In this document: positions 12,319 to 42,400 of the stretch, in pieces
Layout: the number at the start of each line of letters is the position of its first letter
Numbering within the stretch: the first letter of the stretch is position 1
Assembly (NCBI RefSeq): GCF_035083965.1
Contig: NC_089736.1
Coordinates: 4,095,501-4,159,500, forward strand
DNA length: 64,000 bases
Direction of reading: 5' to 3'
Source: Branchiostoma lanceolatum
Taxonomy: Eukaryota > Chordata > Leptocardii > Amphioxiformes > Branchiostomatidae
The notes under the pieces: model-generated
Seen by the model: the letters and a program-made list of their open reading frames with translations, nothing else
The model's database searches: none
Told to the model about the DNA's origin: nothing
Position numbers and translations under genes: made by a program

Positions 12319-12328
12319 GGGGATTCCC
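12319..12328. promoter_or_regulatory. kappaB-type site
   Basis: GGGGATTCCC matches the Rel/NF-kappaB consensus GGGRNWYYCC exactly. It lies 0.7 kb upstream of the minus-strand LRR gene start and 2 kb upstream of the LRR-TIR gene start. Function is inferred only. Confidence 0.4.
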
Positions 12329-13798: not shown

Positions 13799-13809
13799 GG
13801 GGATTCCCC
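13799..13809. promoter_or_regulatory. kappaB-type site, palindromic
   Basis: GGGGATTCCCC is a perfect palindromic kappaB sequence 489 bases upstream of the start codon of the LRR-TIR receptor at 14298. Its position fits an inducible innate-immunity promoter, but binding is not shown. Confidence 0.45.
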
Positions 13810-14297
13810 TTGAAGGTTTTCAATTTGTGACGGTTAGCACTTCAACAAATGAACGCAAGACATCGACGGGCTTTTGATTACAAAATCAAACACATTAGAT
13901 GTTTGTATACAAAAGGACTAATTGTCCCGTTATAACTCAGGTGCTATCAAGGACAAGCAACAGGAACAAATTTGGCGCTTGGATCCGACATTTTGAATAC
14001 ACAGTCACTTCCAGGTTGCCATCTTGTTCTTGCTGTTTTTTTGCCAACAAACAAAACGGGAGTCGACATCATTATTCAATACAAAAAGAAAATTGTTAGC
14101 CGTTCCCCATTCTATGATCACTGTCGTTTCTGTGTAAGCCAAGATTATGTTGACTAGTAAAACCGAGCTTCCTCGTTTGTTTAATACAGGCAAGTCCAGG
14201 CAAGTTCATAGTCCAGGGAAGTTCATGACAACTCGGGGCATTTGTTCCACCAAAAGAAGGTTTTAGGATCCATAGACCGATACATCCATTCCACACA

Positions 14298-16036
14298 ATG
14301 AAAGGGCTCGGATTGATGCTCATCCTATCTTCACTAGCAGTTTATACGTCGTGCAGTCAGAACGCGACGGACTGCGCGCCGTGTACGTGTACTCTTGACG
14401 TCGGCGGAACGGACGTGGACTGTAGCGGGCGGGGCCTCACCGAGCTACCAACCAACATTCCCAACAACACGATCTACCTCGCCTTCAAGTACAACAACCT
14501 CACAACTCTAAACCTGGACGAACTATGCAAGCTAAGACTGCTTGAAGGCGTAGACTTGTCAAAGAACAAAATATCCTCAATACATGGTTCTTTTCGTTGC
14601 TTCAAATACCTTGAGGTACAGCTGTATAACAATTTGCTGGAAACTCTTGACAAGAAAACATTTGGGCCTTCGCTGAGATGGCTGAAGCAGGCGTTCTTGT
14701 TCAATAACCCATGGAAATGTGACTGCCATTTGCAATGGTTAAGCAATGACATGCACAGATACAAAACCAAGCTTCCACCGAAGGGTGTGAGATGCCAAAG
14801 CCCATCTGGACTGAAAGGAAAACTATTGACAAATGTCAAACAAGAGAATTTCGTTTGTCCATTTCCATTATGGAAAAAGGTTGTATTCGGGGTGGTTGGT
14901 GGACTGCTTCTTGTCGGGGTATTAATCGTGGTACTATGTTGGTGGAAAAGAAAAGAGAACACAAGGAAACAGAGACCAGTTTTCTGCAGGGACGGGTGCG
15001 TGCCAACGGACAAATCTCTGAACCTAGAATGGACTTTTGCAGAGGGCTACAATCCAACGACATGCGTTGTGTGCATCACTGGTGGGTCAATAAAGACGTT
15101 TACCGTGCCAAATGACCAATGCGTGGATGGGACGTGGACATTTCAAGTTTCAGAAGGCATAACGTGTAATACAGAGTACACGGTTCGCGTGTCGGAGACA
15201 GACAGGGGACCTTCCAGCGACACCATCTGCCTCGTGACCGTCGGTCCAGGTAGGACAAGTTTTGTTCTTTACTGTATACTGGCCAGAGGGGAGGGCGTAA
15301 TTAGGAAAAATAAAATCTTGAAGTCTCTCAATATTTCGTCAATTTAAGATAGTTTTTCCACAGATGGCATACATATTCCCACAAATTTGTTGGCTAATGC
15401 ATGAAGACCATTCCAAGGTCTTAAACCATAGCCACAACCACCTACAAATATGTTATGAAAGATTGAAAATACGTATTTCAAGCAAAAAATGCCCCTAAAA
15501 GAAACTTAACTTCACATCCAGGTGTGCATGGGGTAGGACAGCGTGAAGACCATACAGAGTATGCAAGAGACTTCTGGATTATAGGCCACAAGAATGACCA
15601 AAGCCGAATAGAGAAACTGTGCAGATCCCTTGAGAATCACCACGATCTGACAGGCGGGACCGAGTATAGGGACTATGGAGGAGGCGACAGTGTTTTCGAC
15701 AACTTAGAGAATGCTATCTCCACATCTAGGATAGTTATTGTTGTATTAAGCAATAATACCAAAGGGGGCTGGGTCAAATACCAGATAGAAACCGCCCGTC
15801 ACTGTCTGATGGGCACTGATAATGAAACAGCTAATGACGTAGAAGGACACATAGAAACAAGCCGACGGCTGATACCAGTCAGGCTTACATGTTGTCGAAA
15901 ACCTCACTGTTTGCGGACTCTAACAACCTTAGATGTATGGAATAAATACTTCTGGAGAAAGTTGCTGGCTGCTTTCAACAAGAACAGTTGCAATGTAGAT
16001 GATAGAACGACTGAAAGTGCACCACTGATTAGCTAG
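14298..16036 (+). CDS. LRR - transmembrane - FN3-like - TIR receptor (paralogue 3)
   Basis: Two exons, 14298-15249 and 15522-16036 (1467 nt, 488 aa). Signal peptide 1-20, LRRNT (CAPCTC), about three LRRs, LRRCT (NNPWKCDCHLQWL at 136-148, Cys166, Cys187). Transmembrane helix about 195-215 followed by WWKRKENTRKQR. An FN3-like domain (about 226-316: SLNLEW, then TCNTEYTVRVSE) follows directly, then TIR (about 330-470). TIR features are RDFWIIG at strand A, a divergent box 2 (TEYRDYGGGDS), GGWVKYQIE in the WxxxE-type helix, RRLIPVRL and box 3 KYFWRKLL. It shares domain order and the phase-1 intron before TIR with the gene at 6798-9092, but it has lost or never had the intron between membrane segment and FN3, and its linker is much shorter. 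Ligand unknown. Confidence 0.85.
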
Positions 16037-17127
16037 AATTCTGACCCAATTGTCTTTTGCTATTATTGTATGGCGAAAGTGAAAGCAATAATGCCTATAT
16101 CCATGTCAGTGGGCAGACACAATGGCCCGCACGATGAAGTCATGTAAAAGGTATGTAGGTTTGGTGTGAAAGTGAAAGCTAATTTTCTACCTGCGTGTGC
16201 TGCTTCATATGTATCTTAGGCCAAATGTTGCACTTCTTTAAGCTGTAAGACTGATTTTATAGATCCAAAGTCGTTATATTCTACTACGACATTTAAGTTG
16301 TAAACAGAGATGTCATCGTTCTTGCATGGTGGAAATGATTCAGTAAAGTTATCAACTGGAAATGCACGACTTTCTACTTCTGTTTATTATATACTGTCGA
16401 TAGATTACAAGGGTAATGGCCCACACAGTTTTAATCTTATTAGACATGTAGCTGAACATATCACCCATGTTTATCTATGACAAAATTGCGTACTTATGAG
16501 TTTGCGAAGAAGCTGAAGTAAGTGTACATGTATGTAAATCAACTGAAGATGTCATTCACGTCCACCTATGACAAAGTTGTGTACATATTCTATGCAATAT
16601 GCATTACATCATTTCTGGTAAAGATGTACATTACAGAGAGCCTATTACAACGGTTACCTTACTAACAGATACACTTTAAGAGAAAAGCAGGGGCATTTGT
16701 ATACGTAGACACACGCCATGTGAACTTAATCCTTATACCTACCGTTTATATATGAAACACAAAGCAAACTATCTTGTTAACCTAACTTACATCTTCAAAG
16801 TGATAGACTTTATATTTCTTGGTCCCTTGTTCCTGTCAGAACTATGGTAGTCTGTACCTTTTAATCACTATATATATCAGACTAATGTATCTTATTAGCC
16901 CTAAAACTTTTAACCGTTGTTTACTCATACACATAGCTAATGTCCTGTGAACCCGACAGTGGCAGTGTCGTATTCTTAAGTCAGAGCTTAATGTTAAGTG
17001 CTCGAATAAACACTTGTACACCAGACTCTTTTCGAGAAGGTCCTACCTGTCTAAGTGTTCAGACTAGGTGCTATTTCATTATACTTAAGTCTGATCTCTA
17101 GTCCAACTCCTTCAGACCAATTTTGCT
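16037..17127. other. Intergenic, 3' flank of LRR-TIR gene
   Basis: AT-rich, no exon-like frame. It contains the 3' UTR of the gene ending at 16036. Confidence 0.4.
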
Positions 17128-17355
17128 ATTCTATATACTCTCCAAGCAGAGCTAGGGTTTCGGCTGGTTTTTGACGTGTTTTTAGGCGTTTTTGTCATGC
17201 CTTCTACTTTGTCATCGTTTTTGTTGTGTCGCCAACCCAACGGTGGGTTGGCGACACAACAAAAACGATGACAAAGTAGAAGGCATGACAAAAACGCCTA
17301 AAAACACGTCAAAAACCAGCCGAACCCCTAGCTCTGCTTGGAGAGTAATTCTATA
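17128..17355. mobile_element. Foldback transposon (212 bp) with 8-bp target duplication
   Basis: Positions 17136-17347 form an almost perfect palindrome: two 104-nt arms around a 4-nt centre (ACGG near 17240), ends TACTCTCC and GGAGAGTA, with one obvious mismatch near 17156. It is flanked on both sides by the identical octamer ATTCTATA (17128-17135 and 17348-17355). An 8-bp target duplication is typical of hAT, and also of P and Merlin elements. There is no coding capacity, so this is a non-autonomous foldback or MITE copy, and the arm identity implies it is young. It sits 49 bases from the stop of the LRR gene at 17404. Confidence 0.9.
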
Positions 17356-17403
17356 GTCCATAAAGGAGTCTGGTGGGGGCCAGCATATACATCTAGAGCA
17401 GTT

Positions 17404-18255
17404 TTACATGTAAACCTCTCTGTTATCTGTAGGGATCATCGGCCTTGTCTCAATGTCCGTGCCTGTGTCCTGTTTACCTGCGTGGTACTCTTTACCGATT
17501 CTACCCATGATCAACAAAGCTACTAAGACTGCTACTGCCACCACAAAAATGGTCGCAATTGTGGCTCCCTTAGACAAGGGTTTCGAGCTTCCGCTTTCAA
17601 CACGTGGGTCATTTTTGGGAGTGGCGGCATCGTCTCCTTGCTCTGCGTCCACAAATGTAACTTCTGGGTCACATTTGAAGTCAGACAAGGGCACGTCTGA
17701 TACATAAGACCCGTTCAGGTTGTCGGGACTGTTACAGAACACGAGCCGCTCGCTGTAGACGTCTGTGGCGTTCGCGTACTTTTCAGCCAGCCACTTCAGG
17801 TGGCAGTCGCAGCGCCAGGGGTTGTTGGCGAGGAAAACGAAGAACCGTCTCCCGTCTTGCCTGGCCGCGGCAAGAGGGGCTGCGAACGTTTCTTCAGAAA
17901 GGACGTGCAGGGCATTGCCTGAGAGGTCTATGTTGTCCAGGTGAACAAGATGGCGGAGAGCCCCTCGGGATATTTTCTTGATCTTGTTGTTGCTTAGATC
18001 GATGCCTTTCAGTTGTCTCAGACCTTTAAAGTCGTGGCTGCCAATTCTTGCCAAGTTGTTGTACTTGAGGACAAGCCATATAGTGGATGTGGGGATGCCT
18101 GCTGGGACTTGGTTGAGGCCTTGTCCGCCACAGGTTACAGTCATCTCACCATGGGAGTTCTCACAGTCGCACAGGGCCGGGCAAGTGTTGTCTTCTTGAG
18201 CCATGATCATGGCTAATAGTGTGGCCGAGATGAGGAACACTTCCTTTGGGCCCAT
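17404..18255 (-). CDS. Short LRR transmembrane protein without TIR (paralogue 4)
   Basis: Single-exon gene of 283 aa. Signal peptide about 1-19, LRRNT (CPALCDC), three LRRs including [19 protein letters not shown] (NNPWRCDCHLKWLAEKY) and an acidic, serine-rich juxtamembrane linker. A transmembrane helix lies at about 228-250. The short tail ends NREVYM. The match to the protein at 10794-11591 is clear in exon structure, in the GIDLSNNKI repeat and in the GRRFFV-LANNPW junction before LRRCT. No TIR exon is seen downstream on the minus strand. The role could be co-receptor or decoy for the neighbouring TIR receptors; that is inference from proximity. Confidence 0.85.
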   Translation of the reverse strand: MGPKEVFLISATLLAMIMAQEDNTCPALCDCENSHGEMTVTCGGQGLNQVPAGIPTSTIWLVLKYNNLARIGSHDFKGLRQLKGIDLSNNKIKKISRGALRHLVHLDNIDLSGNALHVLSEETFAAPLAAARQDGRRFFVFLANNPWRCDCHLKWLAEKYANATDVYSERLVFCNSPDNLNGSYVSDVPLSDFKCDPEVTFVDAEQGDDAATPKNDPRVESGSSKPLSKGATIATIFVVAVAVLVALLIMGRIGKEYHAGKQDTGTDIETRPMIPTDNREVYM

Positions 18256-21200
18256 CTTGACGATTAGTTGTGACTGCTTCGTCTTTTACTGAAAAGGCAA
18301 AATGTGTAAACAACATGAAGTGATGGCATAAAAATTGTGGCCTTCTTAATGTTATGTTAAAACGACAGCTCATTCTTACACGGCTATCAGAACTAAAGAT
18401 CATGAAAGAATTTGTTCACAACCATAACAGGAACATGTCTCATATTTCGAACATTTAACAAACATCCTCAAACAGTATGTAACTTACATTTTAGGCTGTT
18501 AAAACGACGCACACAGTACAAACCTTCCAGTATTCCATCGATCGGATATTCTATACACAACGCTACCAGGATGTAAACGTAACAGGACACAATATGTTTT
18601 CGCTTGCTATCGATTTTTAAACTCTCCATTTCCAACATCTGTTGTTACTGTTTTGTTCATGATATCTTGCCATATTTTAAGCTTGTGATACAATTTAAGG
18701 CTTGTCAACAACCAGGGGCAGGGCGTGGCTCAAGTATTTCAATCATGTGCACACTACCTTACCGTCTAAATGTCAAAGACCCGCGGTCCACAGCTACATG
18801 TGTCTATGATAGAACCGTGGTAAAAAGCATGCCTCTTAGTTGAGGACGGTACTTGTCCTGTTGTAATTAAGCTACAATAAACATGTCGCGAGGCAGACAG
18901 GATATATTTATCTATCATATACCATTAATATTTCAACAGTTTATACAGTCATAGTTCTGATGCCCCAACAAAACAGTTACTAACACAGTCACAGTTTCCA
19001 AATCCCACACTCAAGTTGCTGACATTATTGTGGTACAAAGCAATAAAAGACAATATCTATCAGGAATATCGCATATTATGCCCACTAGTGAGGCCACGAA
19101 TATAGAACGGTAGGTGAAACGCATGGGCTGCGCCTGTACCTGTTCACGTGAGGGTAAAAGAAACAGCACAATCCCCGATAGAAGCGTAGGTAGTGCCTGT
19201 TGAACATTACTATTCCCTACTAATGTCGTCAGCTACACAGTACTGTACCTCAAACTTTGATTTTTAAGAGACGTTTCGTGGGCTACAGTGGAAAGCATGC
19301 CTTCTATGAAGACGGCCATTTACTTGGAAAGACCTGTTTTGGCGGAAATGACAAATGACCCGTCTAGTTGTTTACCTGAGCCCCGCCAAATTTGACATGT
19401 GATTCTATTCTATTATGTAAACATTAACTGTCCCATTAGCTTGTACAGCGCTATCTATTCACTTACCTACCTGTATTTTGGTACGTTTTTGACAATCTTA
19501 AGGGTGATACCATTTTATTTGTTTACGTCCAAGCACTTAGTAACACATGTACATAGGAAATTTGACACCTGTGACCTCTGTCAGAGGTGAAAGGTGAGAG
19601 AAGGATAAGGCGGCCAACGGTTGAAGTATATGTTATTATGACTGTGGCTGATACTATCAGCTATGTACAAGTAACATAATCTTTGTTCGGTGCGGTAACG
19701 GATTCTAGTCCATCAAAAGACAATTCAGCATGTGTTGACCTAAATATATGTCGTTATTTTTTTATACGTTACCACTTATATCCAATTTATGCCTGAGTAT
19801 GTGACAAAGTACTTCCAAGCCTAGCCGCGGCGACTCTGGCGTGGGCAGACGTAATTACCAGTGTACACCTTTTTTTTTGCTGTCTGGGTCGATATTGACT
19901 TAAAGTAAGTCAGAAATTAGTAGTAGTGGCCATGTCGATCGCAGTTCCGTCAAATTTTTGTCAACAAACGAACTAAGTTAAACTGGATGATCGTTCTACC
20001 GAGACCCGACTGATACACCGTCCGACAATGACAAAGAAAAAAATAACGATTCCATTGTCTCAATTACGTACATTATACAACGTTAAAATACAACGCAGCC
20101 TGAAGTGTGAATTATCGACGCAGTAGAGTAACAAAGGGCCACAACGGCCTGCGCTGTCGCAGATCACATACAAAGGGAACGGGGAGTTACAGGCGCCACT
20201 CGCCGTAGGCTCGCATTTGGGTGTTACCCACATGAGCGAATTTCAGTTTCCCCAAACACCGAGTACCTACAATGTAGGATTATTGTTAATGCCCATAGAC
20301 AACGATTTGTCTTGCAGAATTGATTGATAGTCTCTAAAACGTATGAGCACGTCCAACTTACCTTCACTTGCTCCTTCCTTTGCTAAGATAACTGATTTTC
20401 CCGCCCATTCCATACAGGGAAAGTCCCACCTCTCATTGTTTCACTACTGGCGCCAAAATGCTTTGCTTTTACATGGTATGCCTGTCGTGAGGTGAGTTAC
20501 GTCACTACGCAAGGGTCGTAATACATGTACAGCACTTCTCTAAACTGGTATGGGCATTTTAGATAGCTTTTATCATCGCCCCTTTGTAACATGTAATAAA
20601 ACGATAATAATGGTCCTATCAGAGAGCTCAACGAATCCAATGAGCTGATTAAGTGTTGCCTTTGATACCCTGAGAAATATTTGCCTTGTTAGACAATAGA
20701 CTTAACCGAACCCCATGATTTTTACAGTGTTATTGTAAGATCATGATTATCTCAAAACTTAAACTGCTACTTCCGAGAATACAATGAGTCATCTAAATCT
20801 AAAAATTAGAAAGTACATAATATTCATCCTTAGACGACTCGAGCTGAGCAAGGGATTTCTTTTTAGTTCATTATCAACACTGGTAATCCATTCAACCACA
20901 ACAGACCCTCAAAAGCAAGCTCTAACAAATAACAGTCAGTGCGTATGTAGAGGGACTGAATGGGGGGGGGGGGTCCTGGAGACGCAAAACGGTAAACTTA
21001 AAAGGACTCGAGTTTATCGATCAGTGACAATGCTTAACGGTAAACTTCCATATTTAATTGTATTCAAGGAGCGTCTGGCTAACTACCCTACGAACAAAGA
21101 CCCAACCGAGCGCTAGCTCCGTTTGGATTTTTCGTCAACCTGCATGGAGTTGAATTCGACTTCGCCATACCAGAATATGTCAATATTAAACGTTTAACGA

Positions 21201-26416: not shown

Positions 26417-28904
26417 TCCAAGAATTTAGTTCAACCGTTAATATACATTGGTCTATTGAATATCTATTCTAATTTGTAGCTTCACCGTTTCAGATAATTG
26501 GACAGGGCCCCCTCTATAACATTCTCATTTACCATCTATCATATGGATATAACCAATTCACGGAACTGTAAATATTTTCAACTTTACTGGTTTAAACATT
26601 TAGGAATGGAACCCCTAAGTATACAATTCTGAAAAAAATAACCAATAAGCCCTGTCACATGCAACAATTTCTAAACTTTTGTACCATTTTGTACAAGCCT
26701 TGCTTAATCACATGCACACACTTCTATCAATTGTCAGCTTAATTAATTGCTTCTCATATAATGCAGTTCATTCGTAAAGCTTTAGATGCCAAGCATGGGT
26801 GTTGAGGATACATCATGCTAAAGAATTAGCAAGAATATCTGATATTGTTTAATGAACATGTACCATATCAATTAGTAGAAACTGCATATGACATACAATT
26901 TACAAATGTATGCTTATGATGGACTGTCATGTGTACTCCTGTAATTCATTTCACCAGAAATGTTTATCAATGTCTCAGAGAAAAGAACCAGATTCATTTC
27001 ATCCTGTAAGTGCTTGTAGTATAAATTTGTATGTTATCACTGTTAGGGACATGTACAAATGTATTCCCAGAAATTTCTGAACTGAAAATAGAACAGCAAC
27101 ACTGAATCATGTGCCATGGGGGATTTCCCCTGAAAATGCCAGCCATCGTTAACATTTCATGATTACTGCATCTGACTATGCTGTAGTTTTTGCACTCAAC
27201 GAGGGACAACTCACCATTCTCCTGCTTAGACTTCTAACACAATTCCTGATGTATGACACTGAAAGATGTGAATATGGCATAGATGTATACTTGTAAGACA
27301 GTAGAAAGAACAAAAGAAATCATGATCATTTTATTGGCATTCAGAAATTTACAATATCATCATACTCAGCTATGCATACATGAATACAAGAAATATTACA
27401 GAATTCCTCATTACTTCAGTGCTTTTACTGGAATTCACTGAAAGAAGTCATTCTTATGTGACTGAAGCAGCAAGACTCAGCTTAAAATGTCTTTGATATT
27501 ATTAAAAACGCTGCGGTAGTTTAAAAAAAAAAGTCCTAGTCAAGGAGCGAGGTTAAGCCACTAACAATTTTCAAAAGACCTGACAACTCTTCAATAAAAG
27601 TCTACTATCCAGGAGCTGAATTATGTCATTTTTACAAGAGCACCACAGCTAAGTTGAGAACACAAAAATCTGAATAGCTACTCTAAATCTCAATGATTTC
27701 TATCGACTTACTAAAATACCCCACACATTCCTACTAAAATTCTAGACTTATATGATTTAGCGTACTATGTGATACAAGCTAAACAGTGCCAGACAACTTA
27801 ACTACAACTAAACATTTTTCAGTCTAAAATATATCAATTTGAATGAGAAGTTTGAGCAAAAAACAACATTCAACTGAGTATATCTTTACACACTATCCTC
27901 CTACCAAAAATAAGGAAATAATACTGACACATTAATGCAAAATGTAAATTAGTTGAGGTAGCTGAAGAACCCACTGTCCTATTAGTATAATATTCTTAGC
28001 AGAGCAGAATGACTGAATGTCATTCATAATTCATACTAGAGCCGTAAGCAAAGTTTTACTTTGCCAAGAGTTGCTGACCTGCTATCATATTGGCCAAAAT
28101 ATTTCTTGAAATTTTGAAAGAAATCAGTGAATCTGTCCAAAAAAAGTTGTCTCTGCAACAGTTTTGACTTTACACTAGATGTACTTGTCTGGTTTCTTAC
28201 TTTACAAAGAACAGCTTTTGAAAATTTTCTCTTTTCTTTACAATGTTTCTTAATAATTTGCCTTACATTTTTAAATGTCCTTTGTTCTAGTACAAGGAGA
28301 AAATCTATGAAAGTCAATGATCTGTTGCGAATGCAAGTAGAACTGCCCCCTAAACACTGTCCCAATCAGGCCATACAATGTTTTTGATTTACCCCAGTAG
28401 CAAGTAGATAAGAAATTGCTGTAATTGGAGTGCTATCAACTGATGTATCTTCACCCCCTGTTACGGGTACAAGGAAAAACGATTATTGGTTGTTACACCG
28501 CATTTTGTCCATTCAATTTTTGTTACAACATAAGGCCATGGAATTCGTCACTTTTATTGGTCAATTCCACAGCTGTGAAAAAGGGCATTGGCTTGTCCAT
28601 GGTTGTAGACTTTTTCACATTTGCAAACCCAGGTTTACCTTTATCTACAGATGTAGGCCAAGTAAGTACTCTGTGTTATGACCCTTTAATAATAGACCAC
28701 TAAAGATGTATTCCACAGCTGTGAATTAAGTTACGCCATGGTGGTGAACTGTGTTACAAAAAGTCATGAAGTACATTCTCAAGCCACAGAAATCACCACT
28801 AAAAATGCTGAATTCCACAGCTGTGGAATCTATCTATCTAGTGTCTAAAACCAAGCTTATGTGGCCTATGGGGACAGGATATGATAAATTGCCTCTATAC
28901 TAGA
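26417..28904. other. Intergenic, 3' flanks
   Basis: AT-rich with no supportable exon. It holds a kappaB-like GGGGATTTCCCC near 27119 and three copies of a palindrome near 28565-28828 (separate entry). Confidence 0.4.
28565..28828. repeat. Three copies of the palindrome TTCCACAGCTGTGAA
   Basis: Copies at 28565-28579, 28711-28725 and 28813-28828 (the last is TTCCACAGCTGTGGAA). The core CAGCTG is an E-box. They lie within 264 bases just beyond the 3' end of NT5C3. Confidence 0.8.
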
Positions 28905-31900
28905 CTATAGAATCTTTTTCAAGATAGCATTTGGCACATCCATGGTACTGTCTGACACCAGCACAATGTCATATGCCTCCTTGTATTTTTCTAACCTCTC
29001 CTCAATCTGAAACAGAAAAAAGGTTGGCAAATGTTAGTGACAATAGATTTCTATGATGAATGATTGTTATTTCATGTTATACACCTTACAACTGACAGAA
29101 AATGACCAAAATACATCACAAAAAGTTCAAACTTCCCTCCAAAAAAATCATCCCAAACACATGTAAAAAACAATGACATTGATTTGCTCCAAGTTGGTAA
29201 AAAAGAAACAAGCCACATGATAGGCTCTCAAGAATCATGTGACAGATCTTGTGCCCAGAAAACTATGACTGCTCTGGGTACAAGATTATCCATTGCAGCA
29301 GACCCACCTATACATTTCATCCAGAACTGCAATTAAACTATTTTCCCCTTTCTACATTGATTTCTACGGCAAAACATGACTACTGAAGCCAGAAACGAAG
29401 AAAAGATAGTGGAAGGCTCAATGTAGCCCATTCCACTTAGCTAAACAAGGATGCATAGTATCTCTTCGCAATGTAACACTTGTAAAAACATTGTGAAACT
29501 CACATTGTCATTAAGAAAGCCTATCTTGAGGATATGTTGCATGTTTGGCACCCCGTCAGCCATCCTGAGGTCACCCATGGAATCCCCCATCAGGATGATA
29601 TTGCGGCGTTCCCTAAGCGTCGTAAAGTAGTCCGAGTTCCGCAGGGCTCCCTCGTTCTTGTTGTACGTGTGCACCAGGTCCCCCTTGAAACCCACCAACA
29701 TACCCTGTTGACAGACAAGATTATCTTATATACCTCAGAGTCTACAACAATTGTGAATGACAGAGAAATTAGATCTAGTTATACTGTATATACGTACATT
29801 CAAAACAAAATTAACAAGCTTCCAGGCAGGTTTCCTTGGAAGTGTCACAAGAAGTGAAATTACAATTCAAGCGGTATATTCTACACTGATTTAACTTTTT
29901 TTACCTCAAAGTACTATCTGGCATTCTATTGTCATACATGTTTCAACACTAGCCTGATTTAAACATACCTTTTAAAGTCAACTTGGAATCAACTCAGTGG
30001 CTTCAAGGAGCCGACTCAAAAAAATGCATATAAATCAGGCCATTATAAGACAGAATGCTGTGTGTATTATTATCAAAAAGAGAATGAATAGTCTTACATT
30101 CTGTAAATAATGCTTAAAATAAGATAGAGAAGACTTTTGCTTCCCAACATACATATGTAAAAAACAACAAATGTGACATTCTGAGGGAACTAAACCCACA
30201 TCATGGTTGAAGTCCATGTAGTTGGACACGACCCTCATGTTGGCGTACATCTGGGAGTGCTGCTTGATGATCTCCTCCAGGATGTCTCCGATCCCCGCCG
30301 AGAAGATCAGCATCGGCACGTTGTGCTCGTGAAGGGCGTGGAACTGCCAATCACAACCCTCTCTGGAGGACAAACAGATAAATGTAGGTCAGTGTGCTGA
30401 AGGTCATCATTTGCAGGTTACTCGAAAGCTTTTTAAAAAGAGACTCTGGGAAGGTGGCTTCATGATGCTTTTCTCTTTCTTTTTATATCCATGAAAAATG
30501 GAGATATAGTTTTGGGTGTGTCTCTGTGTGTGTGTGTCTCTCTCTCTCTGTGTTTCCAGACTATTGTAGTCAGCATAAATTAAGAGCCTCTAGATGGATT
30601 ATGAATTTGGTATGTGGGTGGGTGTTGGGAAGAGGAAAGTCAAGGTCGATCTTGGGCCCCCCTGATATGTGACCTTGACTTGAAGTTGTAAAGTATTTTT
30701 ATGCATAGGAAAAATCAGTGATAGTACAGAAAGCTACACTTGCTTAATGCTTGTTTCTAACCTAGAAGAAAGCAACCATTGTTTACATTCACAAAGAGAG
30801 AGGAAATTATTACTATTAGCAGAATTTCTGTTCAAATACACTATAATTGTACTAAGAATTAAGTATTTCTAAAACACATCATTGTGTGAGAAATGTGACT
30901 TTGATGTTGTTTTTACCATGATCTCAGATGGTTCTTAGCATAATTAGATTAAGAGGGATTACGGGAAATGATGTCATGGGTCAGGCATGTAAGGTCATAG
31001 GTCAAATCCAGGGCGACAGAACACTCAGCAACAAACCTCATTTGAGCATTTGACTCCTTAACAGCGAGGGATAGATCAGACTGCTTCAATCCGCACTCAA
31101 CGAGAACTCCGGTGCCCTTAGTATACCTGATGACACATCGAAACTTCAACATCACAAACAGGGGTCACTTAAACATCAACATGCACATATCAACAGCGCT
31201 GCTCTCTGAGATATAGAACGTCAAAACTGTCCTCTGTTCAAAAGACGTAGTACATGTAACTGACTTCCTTTGCCTTTCTTGTCATTTCTATTTCTAAGTG
31301 GCAAAAATATTTGATGAAGAAAATTCTTTCATATTTTTGTTCATTTTTCTACCACGAGAGGCAGCAAGCAGTTGACAGGCACATGTTTATCATTGTTTGT
31401 ACTGTGATACAAACCTGAGCATAGCATTAGACTCCCTGACAGCTCTGGTGAGGTCTTCCCTCCGGAAGTTGCATGCAACAATAGCTGACTGAGCCTTTGT
31501 CCACCTAAGTGTGAATTTTTGACACCTCAGCTCTGTCATATCAATATCATACAAACTTAGGAAAAAATGTTAATCTTTTTAGACATAACATACTTCTAAA
31601 TTTTGCTGTGAAACAAGATTTTAAAACTTTTTCTTGTAACTTACTTATTATGACTTTCTCAGCAATAAATCATCATGAAATAGAAAAAAATCACATTTCT
31701 AAAGAGCAAGTCTTAAAAGCAATTTACACAAGTTAGCATAAAATAAGCGCAATACCTCAGCTCAATAGAGAATGACTGCTTGTCTTTTTAATCTTTGTTT
31801 AGTACAACAGAAAGATTTGTCTGTTAAAAGCCAAACTTTTGACTGCAAAACTGCCAACAACATCATACAAAAGTAGTAGAAACAATAGCTGAATAAAACA

Positions 31901-34900
31901 GTTCATGGACTGGATGTATACAATAAAATATGTGAAAATGTACAGACAGTTGAACACTATCAAGCAACATTCTATACTGCATGCATATTGAAACCTACCA
32001 CTCCATCATGAAGGGGATCTTTTCCTCTATTGTCATCTTGGCATTGATCTCTATAGGGTAGTAGGTATCTCTCAATTCATCCAGCTGGAAAGAGAAATAA
32101 TAGAGATATGGTAAGTCAAATTCACTTCCAGATTTAATACTCGAGCATGGCAGACAATATTCATACCATACTCTCATCTCCCAAATAAACGTACCGGTAC
32201 GTTTATTTTTTTCAGCCTCAAAATCCACCCAGTACGTTCTTATTTTGGACAGTACGTTTATTAATTTTTTGAAAATCAGAGTTTTGCTAACCAGGGATCC
32301 CATCAAAATCGAAAGTTTGGGTATTCCTGCCCATATTTCCCCGACATTTTTGCTCATAATTTGCTATTTTTCGGCCTAGCGGCGTTGATTTCCCTGCTGC
32401 TATGACCCGGCATTTGTGAAATCCTGGCGGTACTAACATGTCAGTCGATCTCGATACAAAGTAAATGTTGTTATCTCAGACAAAATAAGACGCCACACTT
32501 AAGTTTTGAAATCTATTTTTCATATAAACAACATTGACAGTCTTTTCCCGTTCTAGACCATCTGAATTCTTACAGTGATCGCAAAATTTACGCTCGAAAA
32601 AGACAAAAACATTGCCAAAAGAACAACCTTGGAACAACGTAATCAACACCATGAATGCTCAAGTTACCATTGAGTCGCATGTAAATTCTACTCACGTGAA
32701 ATACAGCCTTTCCTCAAAACTTTTAGAATATGAAAATAACACCACATTATGACAGTGTCTTAGCATTAAAAACTGAATAATACTTTTAAAATCTACAAAA
32801 ACATTTAAATCCTACGGTTCCTACCACAAACATGAAAATTCAGCCCTTGGAAAATCGCCACAGTACAGTAACGCACGCCACTAGAAGTTTCCCACGGACG
32901 GAAGAACTCACTTCTACCAAGGGGAAACAGCTCTTTTTGATCTTCCAATAAAACTCTTTTGTCTTTGTCAGAAATGTGTGGTATTTCAAGAAAGTGAATT
33001 CCCACTTAATAGTTGATAAACAACACTAAGTTGCAATCTATATTCAGTAATTATCACCTACGATGTTTTGACAAAAATCACTCCCCTACAAACAAATTGG
33101 CTGAGTATTCTCAGAACTTAATGTAGCTCTCTGTTAGCCCCACCCCTTACTGTCTGTGTTCCTGTGTTCGGTGCCGCTCCGTCTGACTCGCGCTTTGATG
33201 TGTAACATGAGAACCCTGTGGTTTGTGGTAATGTTTTAGATGTAACCAAGGAACTTTTAATCAGAAAGAGAGAGCACAAAATAGAGCAAGCCTGAGATTT
33301 CTCACATCTAAACAATGAATTTGTTGACAACTAAGTTTCTCAAAATGAAAGATTTTTTCTGCATACATCAAGGGTAATTTTTGGATTTGAAATTATTTGG
33401 ATTGCAACAACACAATAAAGGAGAATATGTGATAATGTTCTTTATAATAAGGTGATTTTGTGGAAAGCATATACTTCTAGTAATGTTTACAAAATTAATC
33501 CATGTTTCTATATGCAATGCATACATGATAAATGGAAAGTTGAGCAAGAAAAAGTACTAGTAACAACTAACATCATACATGTCATAGTTCAACCTTTTCT
33601 ACATGGCTTTTACAAATACGTAATACTTGTATTTTCATCGGATATTCAGGATATGGTAATTTTCTGTTCAAGTTCTAAATGTTGATACATTTGTACAAGG
33701 TGTTACCCATGCAAGTGAACTGAGAAGTTTGGCAACTACTTCTGTTTTAATGATATGCCAGTTTATACAATAATTTTCCTTGATCACTTGGTTCAAGTTC
33801 CAAGTAGAAAATTATGTATCATGTACATTTTCACTTGTTGAATTTGAAGCACCGTTGGCCCCCGCGGGGAACCTATGCCCAATTTTTCCAAAAGTGGAGA
33901 AAATGATTATAATTTGAACAAGATATCTACAGTTATTCGGTTCATTATTTACATACTTATATAGAATATGTAAATAAAAAGAACCTACGTGCTTATCATC
34001 TTCTTTCCCTAAGACAGAAGTAGCATGGACACAGTTAACGTGTCGATTTGGTAATTTTCCGGGGGGTACGTTTATTCCGGGGGGTATGTTTATTAGATTT
34101 TAAAAATTTGTCCAGGGGGTATGTTTATTCCGGGGGGTATGTTTATTTGGGAGATGAGAGTAGGTCATTGTCATATTCCGATTCACACATGTAGTCACAT
34201 AGATTATGTCAAAATAATGTCTGCTACATTCTCCTACACAGGGCCTAACCTATACAATGTACCTTAGGGGGGCTCTGCTAAACCAGGCTCTCCTAAACTT
34301 TTGTGGGCGTGACCCTATCAGAGAATAAGCTTTACCCAAAGAAAACATGCAGTTTTCTGATTGGCTATCAGCTGGTTAGAGGCCATGCCCACAAAACCTC
34401 AGCCGGTTTAGCAGAGCTGAAACAAAGAAGAGAGTAGAACAGTCTCCTGGGCTCCCGGGGATCGAACACGGGCCCACCAGTCCAAAAGACTCCAAAAGGT
34501 ACATAGTATAGGCCGTGGGCAAGGCTCTGCATAGGAGAATGTTTAACTATTGATTATGAATACTTACAATTTGTTTTTTTGACTCTGGCACCAGTGTTGA
34601 GTCTTCTAGTACATCTGAAACAGGACAAAGTGGTTACAGTCTACTGTAAAAAGTGACAAAACCAGCAAAATTCATTTCAATGATTACCAAAATGTTGGTA
34701 TGTGGTAAGATATAACTCATACGTTTTAACCTGGTTCTATGATGATGTCACCTTGCACTGAATCACATGCATTTTAACATGTATGTATCTTGCTTCCAAT
34801 GATTATGGAAAAAAAAATAACGTAACATGAAATATTTACACCATGGACATGCGACATGCAAAAATGCACTACACAGCAGTTGCAGGGTAGGGTAGGGTTG

Positions 34901-37900
34901 GGTAGGGTTCAATGCGAGGATTTGGGAATAATAACTCTGCATAAGCATAGGTAGATTGTTTTGGAAACTTTTGTGTGTGGGAAGACTTTTCCCCACATCT
35001 TTTGCAACCAGATCTAGATTCAGACCTGAGAAATTATTCTCATACACTGTAACCAAAGCCTGATGTGATGCAGTGCTCTGAGGTCTCTGTTGATAATTTC
35101 ACAAACTGCAGCTAGAATAATGCACAATTTGCTGCCTTTGCGGAGGTTTTGCGCTCTACAAATGCATTTTTAACCCAATAATTTTGCATTTCCCAACTCA
35201 CTGAAACTTGCAGCAACTCTCGTGCCTTTGTAGGCCCATCTGGTGATTGTGTAGTCAAAATCAGTGATGACCTAAGATAAGAATTAACACATATGATCTG
35301 TAATGAACCATGCGACTTTGCGGGGACGCGGTTTCCCTAGCGACTTACTGTGACACGTGGCACACCGCTTCCCATTGATGGAGAAACGAGACAATGTCAT
35401 GTCAAAGTCCGTGATTATCTGGAAAAATGGTTGGAGAGACAGAACATTGGTTTATACAAGAGATGGGGACTAGGAACACTTGGACACCTTGACTGTCACA
35501 GTGGGTGATGTTTATGATATAATACATTGAATTTGAAAGTTATGAGAATCTACATGTAAAACAGAGGGAGAGGAACATTGTAAATACAAAAACAGGGAAA
35601 TTTTTCTAACGTGAAATATAATTGTATTAAAGAAAAGGCACAAAAGACTATTAACACATAGAACACCAATTTCACATGATGTGCCAGTACTGTAATTATT
35701 GGGATGACTCCTTTGACACTGCCATTCAGTTTCACTACTGATATTATTTCAAAGACTTCATGTCTACTCATTTATCATATGAGCTCCCACTAAATCAATG
35801 TTTAATTATGCATGTCTGAAAACTACCTGCATGTCATAAAATAATTTTTTCAGTGAAACATCAAAGATGGTATGAACTGCCTAACTCTAAGAAGTGTTTT
35901 CCTCTATTTTCTAGGACAGACTCCACTCTTCAGACTATCACTTCACCTGTAGTTTACTCTTTCCATCCTGGATCAGCTGACACAGCAGTTTCTCCACTCT
36001 CTCTTTATCCTTGATGTAGACATTTTCCTTCTGAAGTTCATCCATCTGTGGACAACACAAAAATGTGATTGTGAATCTTCACTTGATAATCGATATCTTG
36101 TCTTTACAAAAAACCTTATAAATGATACTGCAATGAACTTGCAAGCTTTTGTGTCCTTTGTGTATTTTTCAACCTCACAACTCGGTTTTAAATCTTAACC
36201 ATCTTCCTGCTGCCTATCCCAATTTGGTGCTGCAAGGCTGACTTACTGGGAGCTAACCCACTATTTGAGTTGATTTGCATACATCACAAACTTGTCTGTT
36301 TCACACCTGTAATTGCAAATTTACCATGCACAGATTTTTTTTGCATACAGAAAATCCCACCCTTTATTTGGGGTAACCCCTTGAGGGATCAAGTGCTCAT
36401 GAATATTCATGACTTCAGCTCCCTCCAAAACAGATGATGCAACGGCATCAGCTGTTACTATAAACAGATCCCACTCCGGTCATTGACATTGCACACTAAA
36501 TTAGAACAGACCAAAACAAACTGACCATGCCAACAAACACCCCTTGCTTGTGAGATTGCATACATTGGTAGACACACATATTACAGACTCAGATAGAGGA
36601 CATTCAAAGACAATTTACAAAAAGCAAGTTGTCTGCTGTCACTGCTGTGAATATTTGTCATGGAAATGAAATTTTGATTGATATTTCATCCCATGGGGTC
36701 CTCTTGGCGCATGATAAATTGAAGTATCGGTTGATCGATCAATGCCTAATTGTGTTTTTAATGGAAATTTAGGTGGACATTTGACCTACATTTGAGCTTC
36801 GTAACTTATATTGTCATATTCTTATTCGTGTCCAATTGCAGACTAACAGTAACATCTGTTAGTATATACATGATATAAATTGGCCTGGGCAATATCATTG
36901 TTTAGTTTATGCTTGCTCACCAGAAAGTGAAAATCAAGACAATCTAAAATTGCAAAATCAATATTTGAAACTGCATCCTCTGGCAAAATCCTATGTCTGG
37001 AACTCTACCACAGTATGCAGTGGCCTTATTTTTAGTCCAGAGATGGTCATATTTTCAGTTAAGGATAAAGGTGTCATGTTTATATTGAAAGTGCTGCCAA
37101 GGATAAGGTCAGAGTTGATGTTGGCCAAAGGTTGTTGTTATGAACAGAAATAGCAACAATTCTTGCACTGCTAGCACTTTGGATGTACTCTATGTAGTCT
37201 TGTCAGGAAACCACACCTTCAGATAAGGATAAAGGTGTCATGTTTATATTGAAAGTGCTGCCAAGGATAATGTCAGAGTTGATGTTGGCCAAAGGTTGTT
37301 GTTATGAACAGAAATAGCAACAATTCTTGCACTGCTAGCACTTTGGATGTACTCTATGTAGTCTTGTCGTCTTGTCAGGAAACCACACCTTCCAATTCTG
37401 TTATGTAAATGATTTATCATCTAGGACTAGTCGAGTAGGTTGTCTTGAAATGCACCTAGCAATTGGGACATTGCAAAGATGGATTGTATGTCTTGCATGA
37501 GCTGCAGGTGCAAATGGTTGAGATCTGTTTTTCAGTAAAGATACGTCAGACGTCTGAAACAGAATTACTGATTGCACCTGGTTATGATAATTTTTTTTGA
37601 TATTTCAACAAAGTTAACATTATTGCATAAGTCAGTAATTTACATGCATGTTTACCTCCCGCTGTTGGTATGTGTGAAAGGGACCTGTTGTAGCTGACTT
37701 TTGTGAAAACAGCCCATAATAATCCAATTTTGTGGACATACCTACCTGTGGCAAGGAGCAAGCTAAGACGTTTCAGGGCGGCGTCTTTAGACTAGTTTTA
37801 CCTTGCCGTGTGGTACAATGTAAGAAATGAGATAAGATACCAGACTACACTGAAATACACTTACTACAAGCTACTCTACAATTACAATCTACAAGATACA

Positions 37901-38436
37901 AAAAACACAACTACATACCTTAGATCCAAGGTCACAACTGACTCATAAGACAATCACAGCTTCCGAGATCTCCTCTGCTAACAATGGGTTACTATCTGAT
38001 TGGCTACTTTCACTAGCCAATCAATTGCTTACTTATCCCGGTAATTATTGCAAGCCCCTCCTGCATATAGCCAAGCTACTAAAAGTATGTCTCAAGACCA
38101 TGTATGTTACAGTAGTTTAGAAAAACGTAATAGTATAGTAATACTTATAACGTTACTTTAAATCAAATATTAAGTTATAGCGCAGTGGTAACATGATTTT
38201 TCGGCTGTGCGAATGTAGTACGGGACTCGGTGTAAACAATAAAAAGTGATTGAGGAAAACATTGTGTAAATCCCAAGTAAATCAATTTCTAAAGCACCCA
38301 CCATCTCAATGATCTTGGTCCGTTTCTTTGGGCGCCGGCCGGACAAAAGGTAGCCGGCCAGCGCGGCCCCGGCCAGGGCACAGGCGGCCCCGGTCACCAC
38401 TGCTGCCGTAGTGTTCCAGCCCGATGTCCGCGCCAT
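28905..38436 (-). CDS. NT5C3: Cytosolic 5'-nucleotidase III (pyrimidine 5'-nucleotidase), membrane-anchored isoform
   Basis: A HAD-family phosphatase that removes phosphate from CMP and UMP; some members also act on m7GMP. One isoform uses exons 38436-38302, 36045-35947, 35418-35349 (3a), 34614-34568, 32084-31999, then 31504-31415 (6a) or 31126-31037 (6b), 30362-30200, 29704-29504, 29006-28905: 993 nt, 330 aa. The N-terminus has a hydrophobic segment (about 9-31) followed by KKRTKIIEM, like the ER-anchored human NT5C3A long form. HAD motif I is DFDMT (Asp82, Asp84), motif II lies in [12 protein letters not shown], and the C-terminal acidic motif is [12 protein letters not shown]. It ends AILKKIL, as in the human protein. 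Exons 3b and 6b are tandem duplicates of 3a and 6a (separate entries). Head-to-head with CASD1. The introns hold several transposons. Orthology to the NT5C3A/B group is certain; which vertebrate copy it matches is not decidable by eye. Confidence 0.95.
29951..30041. repeat. MITE-like element in an NT5C3 intron
   Basis: About 90 bases with inverted ends AGCCTGATTTA and TAAATCAGGCC and an inner TTTTTTTGAGTCGGCTC on the minus strand. The segment near 55180-55259 shares this layout. No clear target duplication. Confidence 0.5.
31037..31126 (-). other. NT5C3: NT5C3 exon 6b, alternative copy of the cap exon
   Basis: 90-nt exon, same length, phase and donor hexamer (GTTTGT) as 6a. It encodes [19 protein letters not shown]... 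and ends [10 protein letters not shown], closer to the vertebrate sequence than 6a. Including both would keep the frame, so exclusivity must come from splicing regulation if it occurs. Confidence 0.88.
31415..31504 (-). other. NT5C3: NT5C3 exon 6a (cap region)
   Basis: 90-nt exon, phase 2 at both ends, donor GTTTGT. It encodes [20 protein letters not shown]... and ends [10 protein letters not shown]. It corresponds to human residues around WYTKSHGLLVQQAL, in the helical cap that shapes substrate choice. Confidence 0.88.
32171..34160. mobile_element. 2-kb terminal-inverted-repeat DNA element in an NT5C3 intron
   Basis: The left end CTCTCATCTCCCAAATAAAC and the right end GTTTATTTGGGAGATGAGAG are exact inverted repeats, each bordered by TA (32169-32170 and 34161-34162). 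Both subterminal regions carry further copies of a GTACGTTTATT-type repeat (three near 32190-32265 in one orientation, four near 34065-34150 with CCGGGGGGTA spacers). I find no intact transposase, so it is non-autonomous. The TA borders suggest a Tc1/mariner-like or related target preference. It lies between exons 4 and 5. Confidence 0.75.
34226..34542. mobile_element. Composite foldback element in an NT5C3 intron
   Basis: Outer inverted repeat ACATTCTCCTA (34226-34236) against TAGGAGAATGT (34532-34542), extending imperfectly through the CCTATACNATGTACCTT region. A second inverted repeat GCTCTGCTAAACC (34272-34284) pairs with 34405-34417. The minus strand near 34470 reads GTGTTCGATCCC, like a tRNA B box. 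No target duplication was identified. Confidence 0.65.
35202..35271 (-). other. NT5C3: NT5C3 exon 3b, alternative copy of the catalytic exon
   Basis: 70-nt exon with the same length and phases as 3a (acceptor TTAG, donor GTGAGT). It encodes [19 protein letters not shown]..., keeping both catalytic Asp residues and Thr of DxDxT but changing the substrate-facing residues after them. Using both copies (140 nt) would shift the frame, and the 77-base intron between them is very short. Both facts point to mutually exclusive splicing. Confidence 0.88.
35349..35418 (-). other. NT5C3: NT5C3 exon 3a (catalytic HAD motif I)
   Basis: 70-nt exon, enters in phase 0 and leaves in phase 1 (acceptor CCAG, donor GTAAGT). 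It encodes [19 protein letters not shown]..., nearly the vertebrate sequence, with nucleophile and acid Asp of DFDMT. It is 77 bases upstream of exon 3b. Confidence 0.92.
37061..37391. repeat. Two tandem copies of a 164-bp unit, NT5C3 intron 1
   Basis: The segment starting AAGGATAAAGGTGTCATG at 37061 is repeated almost base for base from 37225. The second copy has an extra 8-base GTCTTGTC duplication before CAGGAAACCACACC. High identity implies a recent event. Confidence 0.93.
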
Positions 38437-39420
38437 AGCTTGTTCGGAAGGAGAAAGAGCTAGCAGACGGTACAGCAGGATATTTATAGAGAAAACGGGA
38501 CGGATAAATACAGCAGAGCGACGCCAGAAATTTTAATCTATGGAAAGACCAGTAGACGATACCAATCAGAGGTCATCGGATAAATCCAAAAAATATTTCA
38601 AATACATGAATTTAACAATCTTATTCCCAAATGATAGCACTTTGAATGTAATATTAATTCTAAAAATAATATCTTCATAAGCTAGATAATCTAGATCAGT
38701 CTGGCTACACATTATTATATATATTGTAGCACTCCCCTACTTTTAGAATGAACTCTACGAATGACCTTAAATAGGGGCAGTACGTTTTACGTTACCCAAA
38801 ACATATCAGTTTCTTCTTCAACTATTACCAAGAAGGCTATTACATTTTATGTAAAGCTTTTATGTTAAATGGCGTAAAATTGAAGCTTTCTTGTGTCTAT
38901 CTCTGACTGATTGTTGAGATTCCTCTAAGTTCTAACAAGGAGGTTAAGCCTCATCATCTATTGACAATATTTAACGGAATGTCCCCCTATTTGTGAGGGG
39001 TAAACCAGAGGTGATCCCAAGGGATGTCATATAATGGGACAGGTGTATCAAGACAAATCACTATCATAGGACCGACAGGCGCTGAAAAATGCAAATATTC
39101 CTTCCACCTTCAAAATGTCCTAACGTTAGATACTGACTGCAACCTCCGTTTGCTTCATTTTAGCTGATATAAGAAATGACCATCCCTACCTCGAAAAATC
39201 AAACCGGACCATCCCCATTTTGAGCGCATCAAATGAATTGTACTAAACTGCGATTGCGTGGATGATAGGTATCATATATCATTACAATATACTAAATAAA
39301 ATTAGATTTATATCAATTTATTTATTCCTTAGCTTTTCTTTTTTCTAAAGTTCTGCTGATACGAACGTTTTATGGTACGTTCTTTCCGCACCGATTTTCG
39401 TTGTTTTGCGGTGAACCAAC
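38437..39420. promoter_or_regulatory. Bidirectional promoter region, NT5C3 / CASD1
   Basis: Only 984 bases separate the divergent start codons of NT5C3 (38436) and CASD1 (39421). The CASD1 start itself sits in ACATGGCGGC, a YY1-type element common at TATA-less promoters. No TATA box is evident. A fragment CAAGGAGGTTAAGCCTC near 38937 resembles half of the mini-insertions at 24393 and 39845. Confidence 0.5.
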
Positions 39421-42400
39421 ATGGCGGCTATTATGAACACCTGGAAGCTAGAAAACGCGTTGGACTACACCAACATGAACACTGCCAAAAAACTCGCTTT
39501 TACCGTGGCCACAGTCCTGATAATCATCCATGGAACACGTATATACAACAACGGTAAGTATGATGCTGTTTCTTTACAGTGGATCGCTTTTTTCGAGGTA
39601 GAAACTGGTTTTGTTTGCAGGCGAGTTGGCCAACATGGCACCTGTGAACCGGATTTTCAGGTCAAGTCGCCCAGGTGGCACTAAACAAGAGCGGAGCAGG
39701 TGGGAGGAGCTGCATTCCATAACAACAACAACAGACGATTAAATAGATAAAATCATGCTCACTATTGCTCAAATGGTCAAATCATCACATAATGATTGAG
39801 TCGGAATATGAAAAAATCGATATGATTTTAGTAATTTCAGCTTGTCACAGCAAATTGAGGTTATTTAACCTCCTTGGTCACAGCAGTTGACTTCACCATT
39901 GTGTGCGCCTTGACAGCTGTACAAAGCCTTATATTTGCACCAAGGCCACGGTTCATTTTTGCTTCAAACCCAAGGGAGGGAAGAATGTTTTTTAGCAGTT
40001 TACTTTAAACTGGAGAACACTCCTTCAGCTAAACAGAGACTCTGCCCTACTCTGCTGACTTTTTTTGCATGTCTGTCTGTCTGTCTGTCTGTTTGTTTGT
40101 TTGTTTTACTGTGTGTCTGAGCAAGTACCGTAGTTCTGTGTTTTCAGATCCTTCGTCTCTCCATGTTTCTTACCTTAACGAAATAAATTAAGAAGGTGAT
40201 ACCTATCCAGCTTACAATGGTTTAGCTCGCTGAAGTGAAGAGCTATTAGTCCACTGGTCGTGACAGAGTAATTTATGCTTACAGATTCAATGTATCGGGG
40301 AAATGCCCCTAGCACTTTTCAACAAGTAGTATGAACAGTGGTCCTAAGGAAGTTGCAACTCTTTCCAGTAGCGTGCTTGCCGTGTGCACAATTGAACTGG
40401 CTTATTTCAGGACCGCTAACCACTGGACTATGCACCTTAACTCATATTATAAGGCAGTGTGAGTAAATGGGGTGAAATCTGCCATCTCTGCTTTCCATGT
40501 TAACGTTGAAGAGCATCATCATCGTCTTTCGACCCCCTGGGGGGGGGGGTAGGCAGGTCAAGTCCATGCATCACCGCATCCACCTGTGAAAACTCATCTT
40601 GATTTATGTCGAGAATTCCTTGCTTTGGTCAACCAACATTCCAATCCTTAAAAAAAAAATGTTTTGAAGACACGTTTTGAAGGCACATAACAGCTTTGCA
40701 AAATCTGTACTGTTCAATTGGCCTTTTGGTAATTATTACACACGGGCTAGCTTTGAAGGCATGTGGTAAATTAAACATTGGCATTCAATTCAAAGGTGCA
40801 TTGTATTTTATATCCAAGAACAAGCTATATACCTGTCCAAGAGGCCTATGTTACATAGTATCAGTAAACATACAATGGAATTCCAAATGTGAGGTTAGCA
40901 CAGTTGAAGGGACAAATGCCATATCCGTCTGTCCACATGTAGTCTGTTTGAAAGCCTTTTGTAAACAAGTTGTTTGCCAAGGATTGTTTAGCTGTTGAAG
41001 GATTGTCAGTAATGTTGTTGTTGTGCTTTTTAGTCACGTAGTCAAGAATTAATGTCTGGACAACATAGATATGTAGAGTCATAGGTCAGGTTACAGGTGC
41101 ACTTGCTACAACTGTTTCTGGGCTACGAACTTGATAAAATGGAAGCTTTAACATCATTCTGTGTCAGTCATTTAAAGGAGCCCTATACTCCAGAAGAGGG
41201 TGTTATTTTTCAATAGATAGTAATTGATAGGAAGGGCCCTAAATTTGATTCCCATCATTCACGTTATTACAAATGTATGTCTACATTGTATATCAATTTT
41301 ATCCTGACAATGGGATTTCAATTTCTTTAGTAAGATTTTCAATGTGTTAAATTCAATTAAGTCAGAGTTATGAAATGCATTGATGTTGTGTTCTCAACTG
41401 TTCATCATAAATGTATCTTCACAGGAGGAGACACCTGCAACAACCTGTTGTCACGAGGACACCTAGCAGCTGATAAGAAATGGCAGCCAGAAGGATGTAT
41501 GCTGCACAAGTACTCCAAAATGTAAGGTCTAGTCTTGACATGTACATGTATCATAATGTTTTTCAAGCCACTTGATAAATGTGTACCATGTTTACACTCA
41601 CATTACAGGTTTGCCATAAGGCCTGTTTAGTTTTACACATCACTCATGTGGGCAGCAATCTTGGTCACCTGATACAGGCTAACCAATCTAGCCTGGAGTC
41701 CAGCCTATTTAGCTTCCGTCCGCTACCCAAGCTCCGCTGCAGTGGAGCTTGGGTAGCGCAGCGGAGCTAGGGTAGCGACCGGAAGCTAAATAGGATGGAT
41801 TCCAGGCTAAACCAATCAACACTGTTCAATTTTATAACAATTCTTTGCACATTGATGAATTTTGCTGTGCATTGCTAGATTTTCAACAATTCATTGAGAA
41901 AGTTCTTCCCCTCCAGGGATATGAGAAAGTGCCTATCAGAGAAAACCTTTACCTTTGTGGGCGACTCACGACAGAGGCAGCTGTACTTCAAACTAGTCAA
42001 GTCCATCAGTGTTTCAACTGTGAAGGAGGGGAAACAGGTCAGTACATGGAACTCCTAGAAATGCTATGTCTCATCAGAATTAGAAATTGCTGTTGGTGAG
42101 TTGGTAATAGCTTGCAATTGTGTCTACATCTGTCACTCCTTCCATTTTACAAGTTTGAATAAAGTACAGTCAAAATACTGTCCAATCTGGCCACTCAGGG
42201 GACCAATAAGATCTTGTCTATGTGGACACACAGGTGGTCACTATAGACAGGATTCTCATTGCTCCAGGATCATGAATTAGGGGTTCTGAAACCCAATTTG
42301 CATACCCGACTGATTGAAGTTTTAGTCAAACAGAACACAGCCTTTGGATTGCACACAATAAACATGATGCAACATTAGAATTGTAAATGTAACTTATAAT

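Follow-up and report, generated by a model that had tools for sequence, protein, structure and literature searches.

The minus strand of the window, by which the whole analysed stretch of 64,000 nucleotides is meant, carries between positions 38436 and 28905 a complete-looking gene of a cN-III-type 5'-nucleotidase with eleven exon copies (1, 2, 3a, 3b, 4, 5, 6a, 6b, 7, 8 and 9), and translation predicts a protein of 330 residues for all four combinations of 3a or 3b with 6a or 6b. The Pfam profile UMPH-1 (PF05822), searched with a query that lacked exon 4 and had one residue wrong, is matched over positions 1-245 of its 246 with an E-value of 2.3e-95 and 319 bits, the cut-off being 23.7. The motifs described for cN-III enzymes are DxDx[T/V] as motif I, a motif II with a Ser, and a motif III with a Lys and two Asp (PMC3946280), and the translation contains DFDMT or DFDYT, LIFS with its Ser, and FKG/K..GDSMGD, respectively. 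By profile and motifs, the gene is that of a cN-III (UMPH-1) 5'-nucleotidase with a predicted enzymatic role. When the part from exon 5 on was compared with the PDB in its 6a form, human cN-IIIB (7zee, 1e-78) and human cN-IIIA (2cn1, 6.6e-76) were the nearest chains among seven distinct matched sequences, and the fly enzyme came last.

All exons lie on the minus strand. Exon 1 (38302..38436) has a start codon and an open frame that encodes a hydrophobic N-terminal segment and a basic stretch (MARTSGW...KIIEM), it ends with ATG followed by the donor GTGGGT, and it is probably joined to exon 2 (35947..36045), which is recognized by its splice sites and a PDB match to cN-III chains and ends in phase 0. 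The 47 nt of exon 4 (34568..34614) begin with two bases, AT, that complete an Asn codon after the final A of either 3a or 3b. Exon 5 (31999..32084) ends with TG, which the base at the start of either 6a or 6b turns into a Trp codon and which becomes a stop codon if exon 7 follows directly. Motif II (LIFSAG) is encoded in exon 7 (30200..30362), motif III (the Lys and GDSMGD) in exon 8 (29504..29704), and the C-terminus with the stop codon in exon 9 (28905..29006).

As to the surroundings, intron 1 contains a tandem duplication (37054-37368; a 164-bp unit in 1.9 copies with 98% matches), and a short repeated motif, gggggtatgtttatt / gtacgtttatttgggagatgagagta, was noticed by eye near exons at 34040-34160 and 32160-32200, perhaps a dispersed repeat. 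Open frames with leucine-rich repeats are found within 6663-18285, on the plus strand at 6663-7829 and 14229-15344 and on the minus strand at 10797-11621 and 17407-18285, with TIR-domain frames nearby at 15467-16033 and, weakly and below the cut-off, at 8550-9089, and together these frames resemble a family of receptor-like genes clustered at this place. Rfam and ARAGORN gave no match within the 64,000-nt window.

Two pairs of duplicated exons

Exon 3 is present in two copies, 3a (35349..35418) and 3b (35202..35271), which, in agreement with the original prediction, are exactly 70 nt long each, have the same phases, and are separated by an intron of 77 nt (35272..35348). Both are preceded by AG and followed by GT (..ccag and gtaagt in the case of 3a, ..ttag and gtgagt in the case of 3b), and they are identical in 10 of 23 residues and in 39 of 70 nucleotides. 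It had been stated that the copies share DFDxT and differ after it, and indeed the motif is there in both, but it already differs itself, being DFDMTL in 3a and DFDYTI in 3b. Further on, 3a encodes a stacking His (35352-35350) and 3b a stacking Phe (35205-35203). If 3a and 3b are joined, a stop is reached three residues on and the translated product has 104 residues, and if neither is used, the passage from exon 2 to exon 4 reads Met-Tyr-stop and the product ends at 80 residues. As both or neither meets a stop, the frame alone permits exactly one of the two, just as the predicted either/or choice had it.

The gene has another such pair, which had escaped the first reading. Exons 6a (31415..31504) and 6b (31037..31126) have 90 nt each, the same phases and AG/GT flanks, lie 288 nt apart, and agree in 12 of the 29 residues from complete codons and in 50 of 90 nucleotides. 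Exon 6a encodes a pocket Trp (31503-31501) and an Ala at the motif S position, exon 6b a pocket Tyr (31125-31123) and a Gly. The first G of either copy completes the Trp codon begun by exon 5, and with the A of exon 7 in its place the codon becomes the stop TGA and the product is limited to 145 residues. Inclusion of both copies stays in frame, with an Arg codon retained at the junction and a product of 360 residues, and exclusivity is thus not enforced by the frame in the case of exon 6. Both 6a and 6b have an acceptor with few pyrimidines (9 of 17 in each case), as would suit regulated exons, but weakly used ones too.

The window was scanned for AG..GT stretches of exactly the same lengths. 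For 70 nt, there are 237 such stretches on the minus strand, 74 of them open, and 240 on the plus strand, 76 of them open; 3a and 3b score 54 with each other (BLOSUM62), no other minus-strand stretch exceeds a score of 3 against 3a or 5 against 3b, and for the open plus-strand stretches the highest scores are -1 (3a) and 1 (3b). For 90 nt (237 on the minus strand with 64 open, 227 on the plus strand with 39 open), the pair 6a/6b scores 68, and all other open stretches on both strands score 5 or less. In 200,000 shufflings of the residue columns, the observed score was never reached by either pair, and by tblastn 3a matches 3b at 3.7e-4 and 6a and 6b match each other at an E-value of 2.6e-6. 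Among the exact-length AG..GT stretches of the window there were no prominent duplicates of exons 2, 4, 5, 7 and 8, and tblastn gave no prominent duplicate of any exon among matches within 27000-41000 or with E under 0.01. A candidate for a second exon 4 at 33396-33355, hit by a human cN-IIIA exon-4 probe (0.037), lacks both a preceding AG and a following GT and was rejected as a chance match.

The nucleobase pocket

The nucleobase pocket can be written as four letters, which are FGWW in the fly cN-IIIB (Phe75, Gly76, Trp120, Trp121) and HNWY in human cN-IIIA (His68, Asn69, Trp113, Tyr114), as described by Monecke et al. (2014, PMC3946280). For human cN-IIIB, Tyr60, Trp105 and Trp106 have been described together with Ala109 at the motif S position (PMC9144445), and the residue that follows Tyr60 in the 7zee chain is Asn. 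In the lancelet gene, the final complete codon of exon 3 gives the pocket its first letter (His with 3a, Phe with 3b), and the opening complete codon of exon 6 gives it its fourth (Trp with 6a, Tyr with 6b); the second and third letters are the split codons, Asn and Trp whichever copy is used. As these split codons are the same for either choice, splicing alters only the variable letters of the code, and the possible pockets are HNWW (3a+6a), HNWY (3a+6b), FNWW (3b+6a) and FNWY (3b+6b), of which HNWY is the pocket of human cN-IIIA and FNWW is close to cN-IIIB. It is the two duplicated exons that carry the variable letters, and a blind pick of two among the seven internal exons (2 to 8) would find them in 1 of 21 cases. 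The original prediction of two active-site variants from one NT5C3-type gene thus holds with respect to the duplicated same-phase exons and a plausible difference in the active site, but it had missed 6a/6b and the base-stacking His/Phe.

Three of these four codes have been measured as mutants of the fly enzyme, and in Table 3 of that study HNWW is absent and HGWW present (PMC3946280). The kcat/Km values given there for CMP and m7GMP are 166,300 and 545,300 with FNWW, 77,800 and 37,800 with FNWY, and 28,800 and 49,500 with HNWY (Monecke et al. 2014, Table 3, PMC3946280). From these values, the m7GMP:CMP ratio is 3.3 with FNWW versus 0.49 with FNWY, and the exchange of Trp by Tyr hence reverses the preference in the Phe-Asn context. 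The rest of the protein has an influence as well, as HNWY gives a ratio of 1.7 in the fly enzyme and 0.18 in human cN-IIIA, which favours CMP (human cN-IIIB: 0.74), and the direction of the preference in the lancelet protein is therefore a prediction. By analogy with the fly mutants, the choice of exons may be expected to shift the preference between pyrimidine monophosphates and cap-derived m7GMP.

Probable exclusive use and its alternatives

It is likely that the locus harbors one cN-III-type 5'-nucleotidase gene in which two clusters of mutually exclusive exons tune the nucleobase pocket. Through exon 3, motif I would vary together with the His or Phe that forms one face of the nucleobase slot; through exon 6, the residue at motif S (Ala or Gly) would vary together with the aromatic residue, Trp or Tyr, that stands edge-on in the slot, and up to four enzyme versions could come from one gene. 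As far as can be read from the DNA, this anatomy is firm, with its phases, its stops, its pocket residues and the constraint on the encoded protein, and use of all four exons (3a, 3b, 6a and 6b) in RNA would be expected from it.

The constraint was addressed by a simulation that starts from one copy, introduces random changes up to the observed number of differences, considers open products, and ignores repeated hits per site as well as indels. Of 100,000 runs per starting copy, 16 and 12 reached the observed protein similarity in the case of 3a/3b, and 0 and 1 in the case of 6a/6b. Identity alone is a looser measure, with 523, 532, 374 and 307 of 100,000 runs attaining the observed values for the copies of exons 3 and 6, and the constraint is therefore mostly visible as conservative replacement. 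Both copies of each pair look as if they were under protein-level constraint. This bears on the alternative that just one copy per pair is in use, its partner being a duplicate exon that is seldom spliced in or was silenced not long ago. Such disuse would agree with the donors of 3b and 6b scoring below those of 3a and 6a (by an approximate matrix) and with the larger distance of 3b from the vertebrate enzymes (12/23 identities with human cN-IIIB versus 15/23 for 3a, and 11/23 with human cN-IIIA versus 20/23 for 3a). However, all four copies are open and without indels, they have their splice signals and the pocket aromatic residue, 3b has retained the exact motif I of the fly enzyme, DFDYTI, and at a DNA identity of 56%, unconstrained change rarely retains such a protein similarity, which is why disuse of one copy is regarded as improbable.

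In the case of exon 3, the choice of a single copy would be imposed by the frame, with nonsense-mediated decay expected for transcripts that contain both copies or neither, as these run into a stop. A too short distance between donor and branch point blocks splicing by steric exclusion, and in the 77-nt intron, the adenosine of branch-point-like sites lies 45, 65 or 71 nt away from the donor. The shortness of this intron may perhaps add to the exclusivity of 3a and 3b. Inverted repeats that could form an RNA pairing switch were looked for in 34500-36100, and the six pairs of 12-21 nt in this region show no clear docking arrangement. In the case of exon 6, a transcript that skips both copies would meet a stop, but one that contains both would stay in frame, so that exclusivity would call for a further control there.

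The criteria that have been used for mutually exclusive exons are similar length, conservation of splice sites and of the reading frame, and homology, and such features were reported for 90 of 16,180 (0.56%) non-exclusive exons of the fly X chromosome (Pillmann et al. 2011). The pairs described here have 70/70 and 90/90 nt, the same phases, and normalised scores of 0.43 and 0.46, with the default threshold at 0.15. The rarity of these features among non-exclusive exons argues against the second alternative, namely that 6a and 6b are not exclusive and that some transcripts contain both and encode the protein of 360 residues, in which the cap helix segment would be doubled. The open frame, the Arg codon retained at the junction, and the 288-nt intron, which is long enough for splicing, would all allow this, but the product would have a 30-residue repeat with a second Trp/Tyr-Thr-Lys in the cap beside the pocket, as suggested by the family alignment, and we consider joint inclusion very unlikely. 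That an error of the assembly or a mixture of haplotypes has produced the duplicated exons is a negligible possibility, for which no support was found apart from the fact that a real tandem repeat (164 bp, 98% match) does occur in intron 1, and the copies, identical at 39/70 and 50/90 positions in DNA, are far too divergent for two haplotypes or a one-exon mis-join.

Relation to vertebrate and fly enzymes and to other systems

If the exons are mutually exclusive, two pockets that vertebrates have in two genes, NT5C3A and NT5C3B, could come from one gene by splicing in the lancelet. The constant exons do not side with either vertebrate enzyme. Identities with human cN-IIIA and cN-IIIB are 13/26 and 14/26 for exon 5 and 90/154 and 93/154 for exons 7-9 (103/180 and 107/180 in sum), and at the 68 sites of these exons at which the two human enzymes differ, 15 match A and 19 match B, so that the constant part is nearly equidistant and assigns the gene to neither cN-IIIA nor cN-IIIB specifically. 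The two copies of exon 6 lean towards different human enzymes. Exon 6a shares 12/29 residues with human cN-IIIB versus 9/29 with cN-IIIA, 6b shares 11/29 with cN-IIIA versus 8/29 with cN-IIIB, and tblastn gives E-values of 1.7e-5 for 6a and 0.013 for 6b with the human B segment as query, and of 0.004 for 6b and 0.34 for 6a with that of human A. At sites where the copies differ and the human enzymes differ as well, 6 of 6 in exon 6 favour the correspondence of 6a to B and 6b to A, and 8 of 10 in exon 3 that of 3b to B and 3a to A. Along with this, 3a+6b has the pocket letters of human cN-IIIA, and 3b+6a resembles cN-IIIB, with which 6a shares the Trp-Trp and the Ala.

It may be speculated that the clusters are chosen jointly, with 3a+6b giving a cN-IIIA-type and 3b+6a a cN-IIIB-type enzyme, and that in vertebrates an ancestral gene with such exons was afterwards divided into NT5C3A and NT5C3B, either of which retained one exon set, but this scenario is rather doubtful. 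As a whole, exon 3 of human cN-IIIB is nearer to 3a (15/23) than to 3b (12/23), and convergence on the pocket letters is therefore as likely as a partition of exon sets. With the fly enzyme, 3b has 11 identities and a score of 53, and 3a has 6 identities and a score of 23. Drosophila cN-IIIB (4NV0, Monecke et al. 2014) has the same motif I, DFDYTI, and the same stacking Phe as 3b, as well as the Trp-Trp of 6a, but has Gly in place of Asn beside the Phe, and its motif S residue is Ser, not Ala.

Should RNA confirm the exclusive use, a base-recognition pocket would be tuned by two independent exon choices in one gene, and the isoforms would be natural counterparts of the already measured point mutants of the fly enzyme. 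Two questions would then become open to experiment: does splicing let cells alternate between salvaging pyrimidines and removing the m7GMP that comes from caps, and could alternative exons have come first and later given way to the two vertebrate genes?

Alternative splicing as such is known in this gene family from the reticulocyte isoform of NT5C3A, which, as described in PMC9700897, contains an additional exon (exon R) near the 5' end and differs from the arrangement proposed for the lancelet in that no pocket exons are swapped. Searches of the open-licence literature found no description of mutually exclusive exons in NT5C3, and as far as these searches show, the occurrence in cN-III and the presence of two clusters, one for each of two walls of the same pocket, are new. 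The kind of arrangement itself is known from exons 6a and 6e of coq-2 in helminths, annelids and molluscs (PMC7434440). That case, as it is described there, concerns one exon pair in another enzyme family and is backed by RNA and mutants, whereas the lancelet gene, known from its sequence, has two pairs, but in coq-2, as is proposed here, the swap of a duplicated exon alters substrate-adjacent residues and thereby redirects the enzyme to another substrate.
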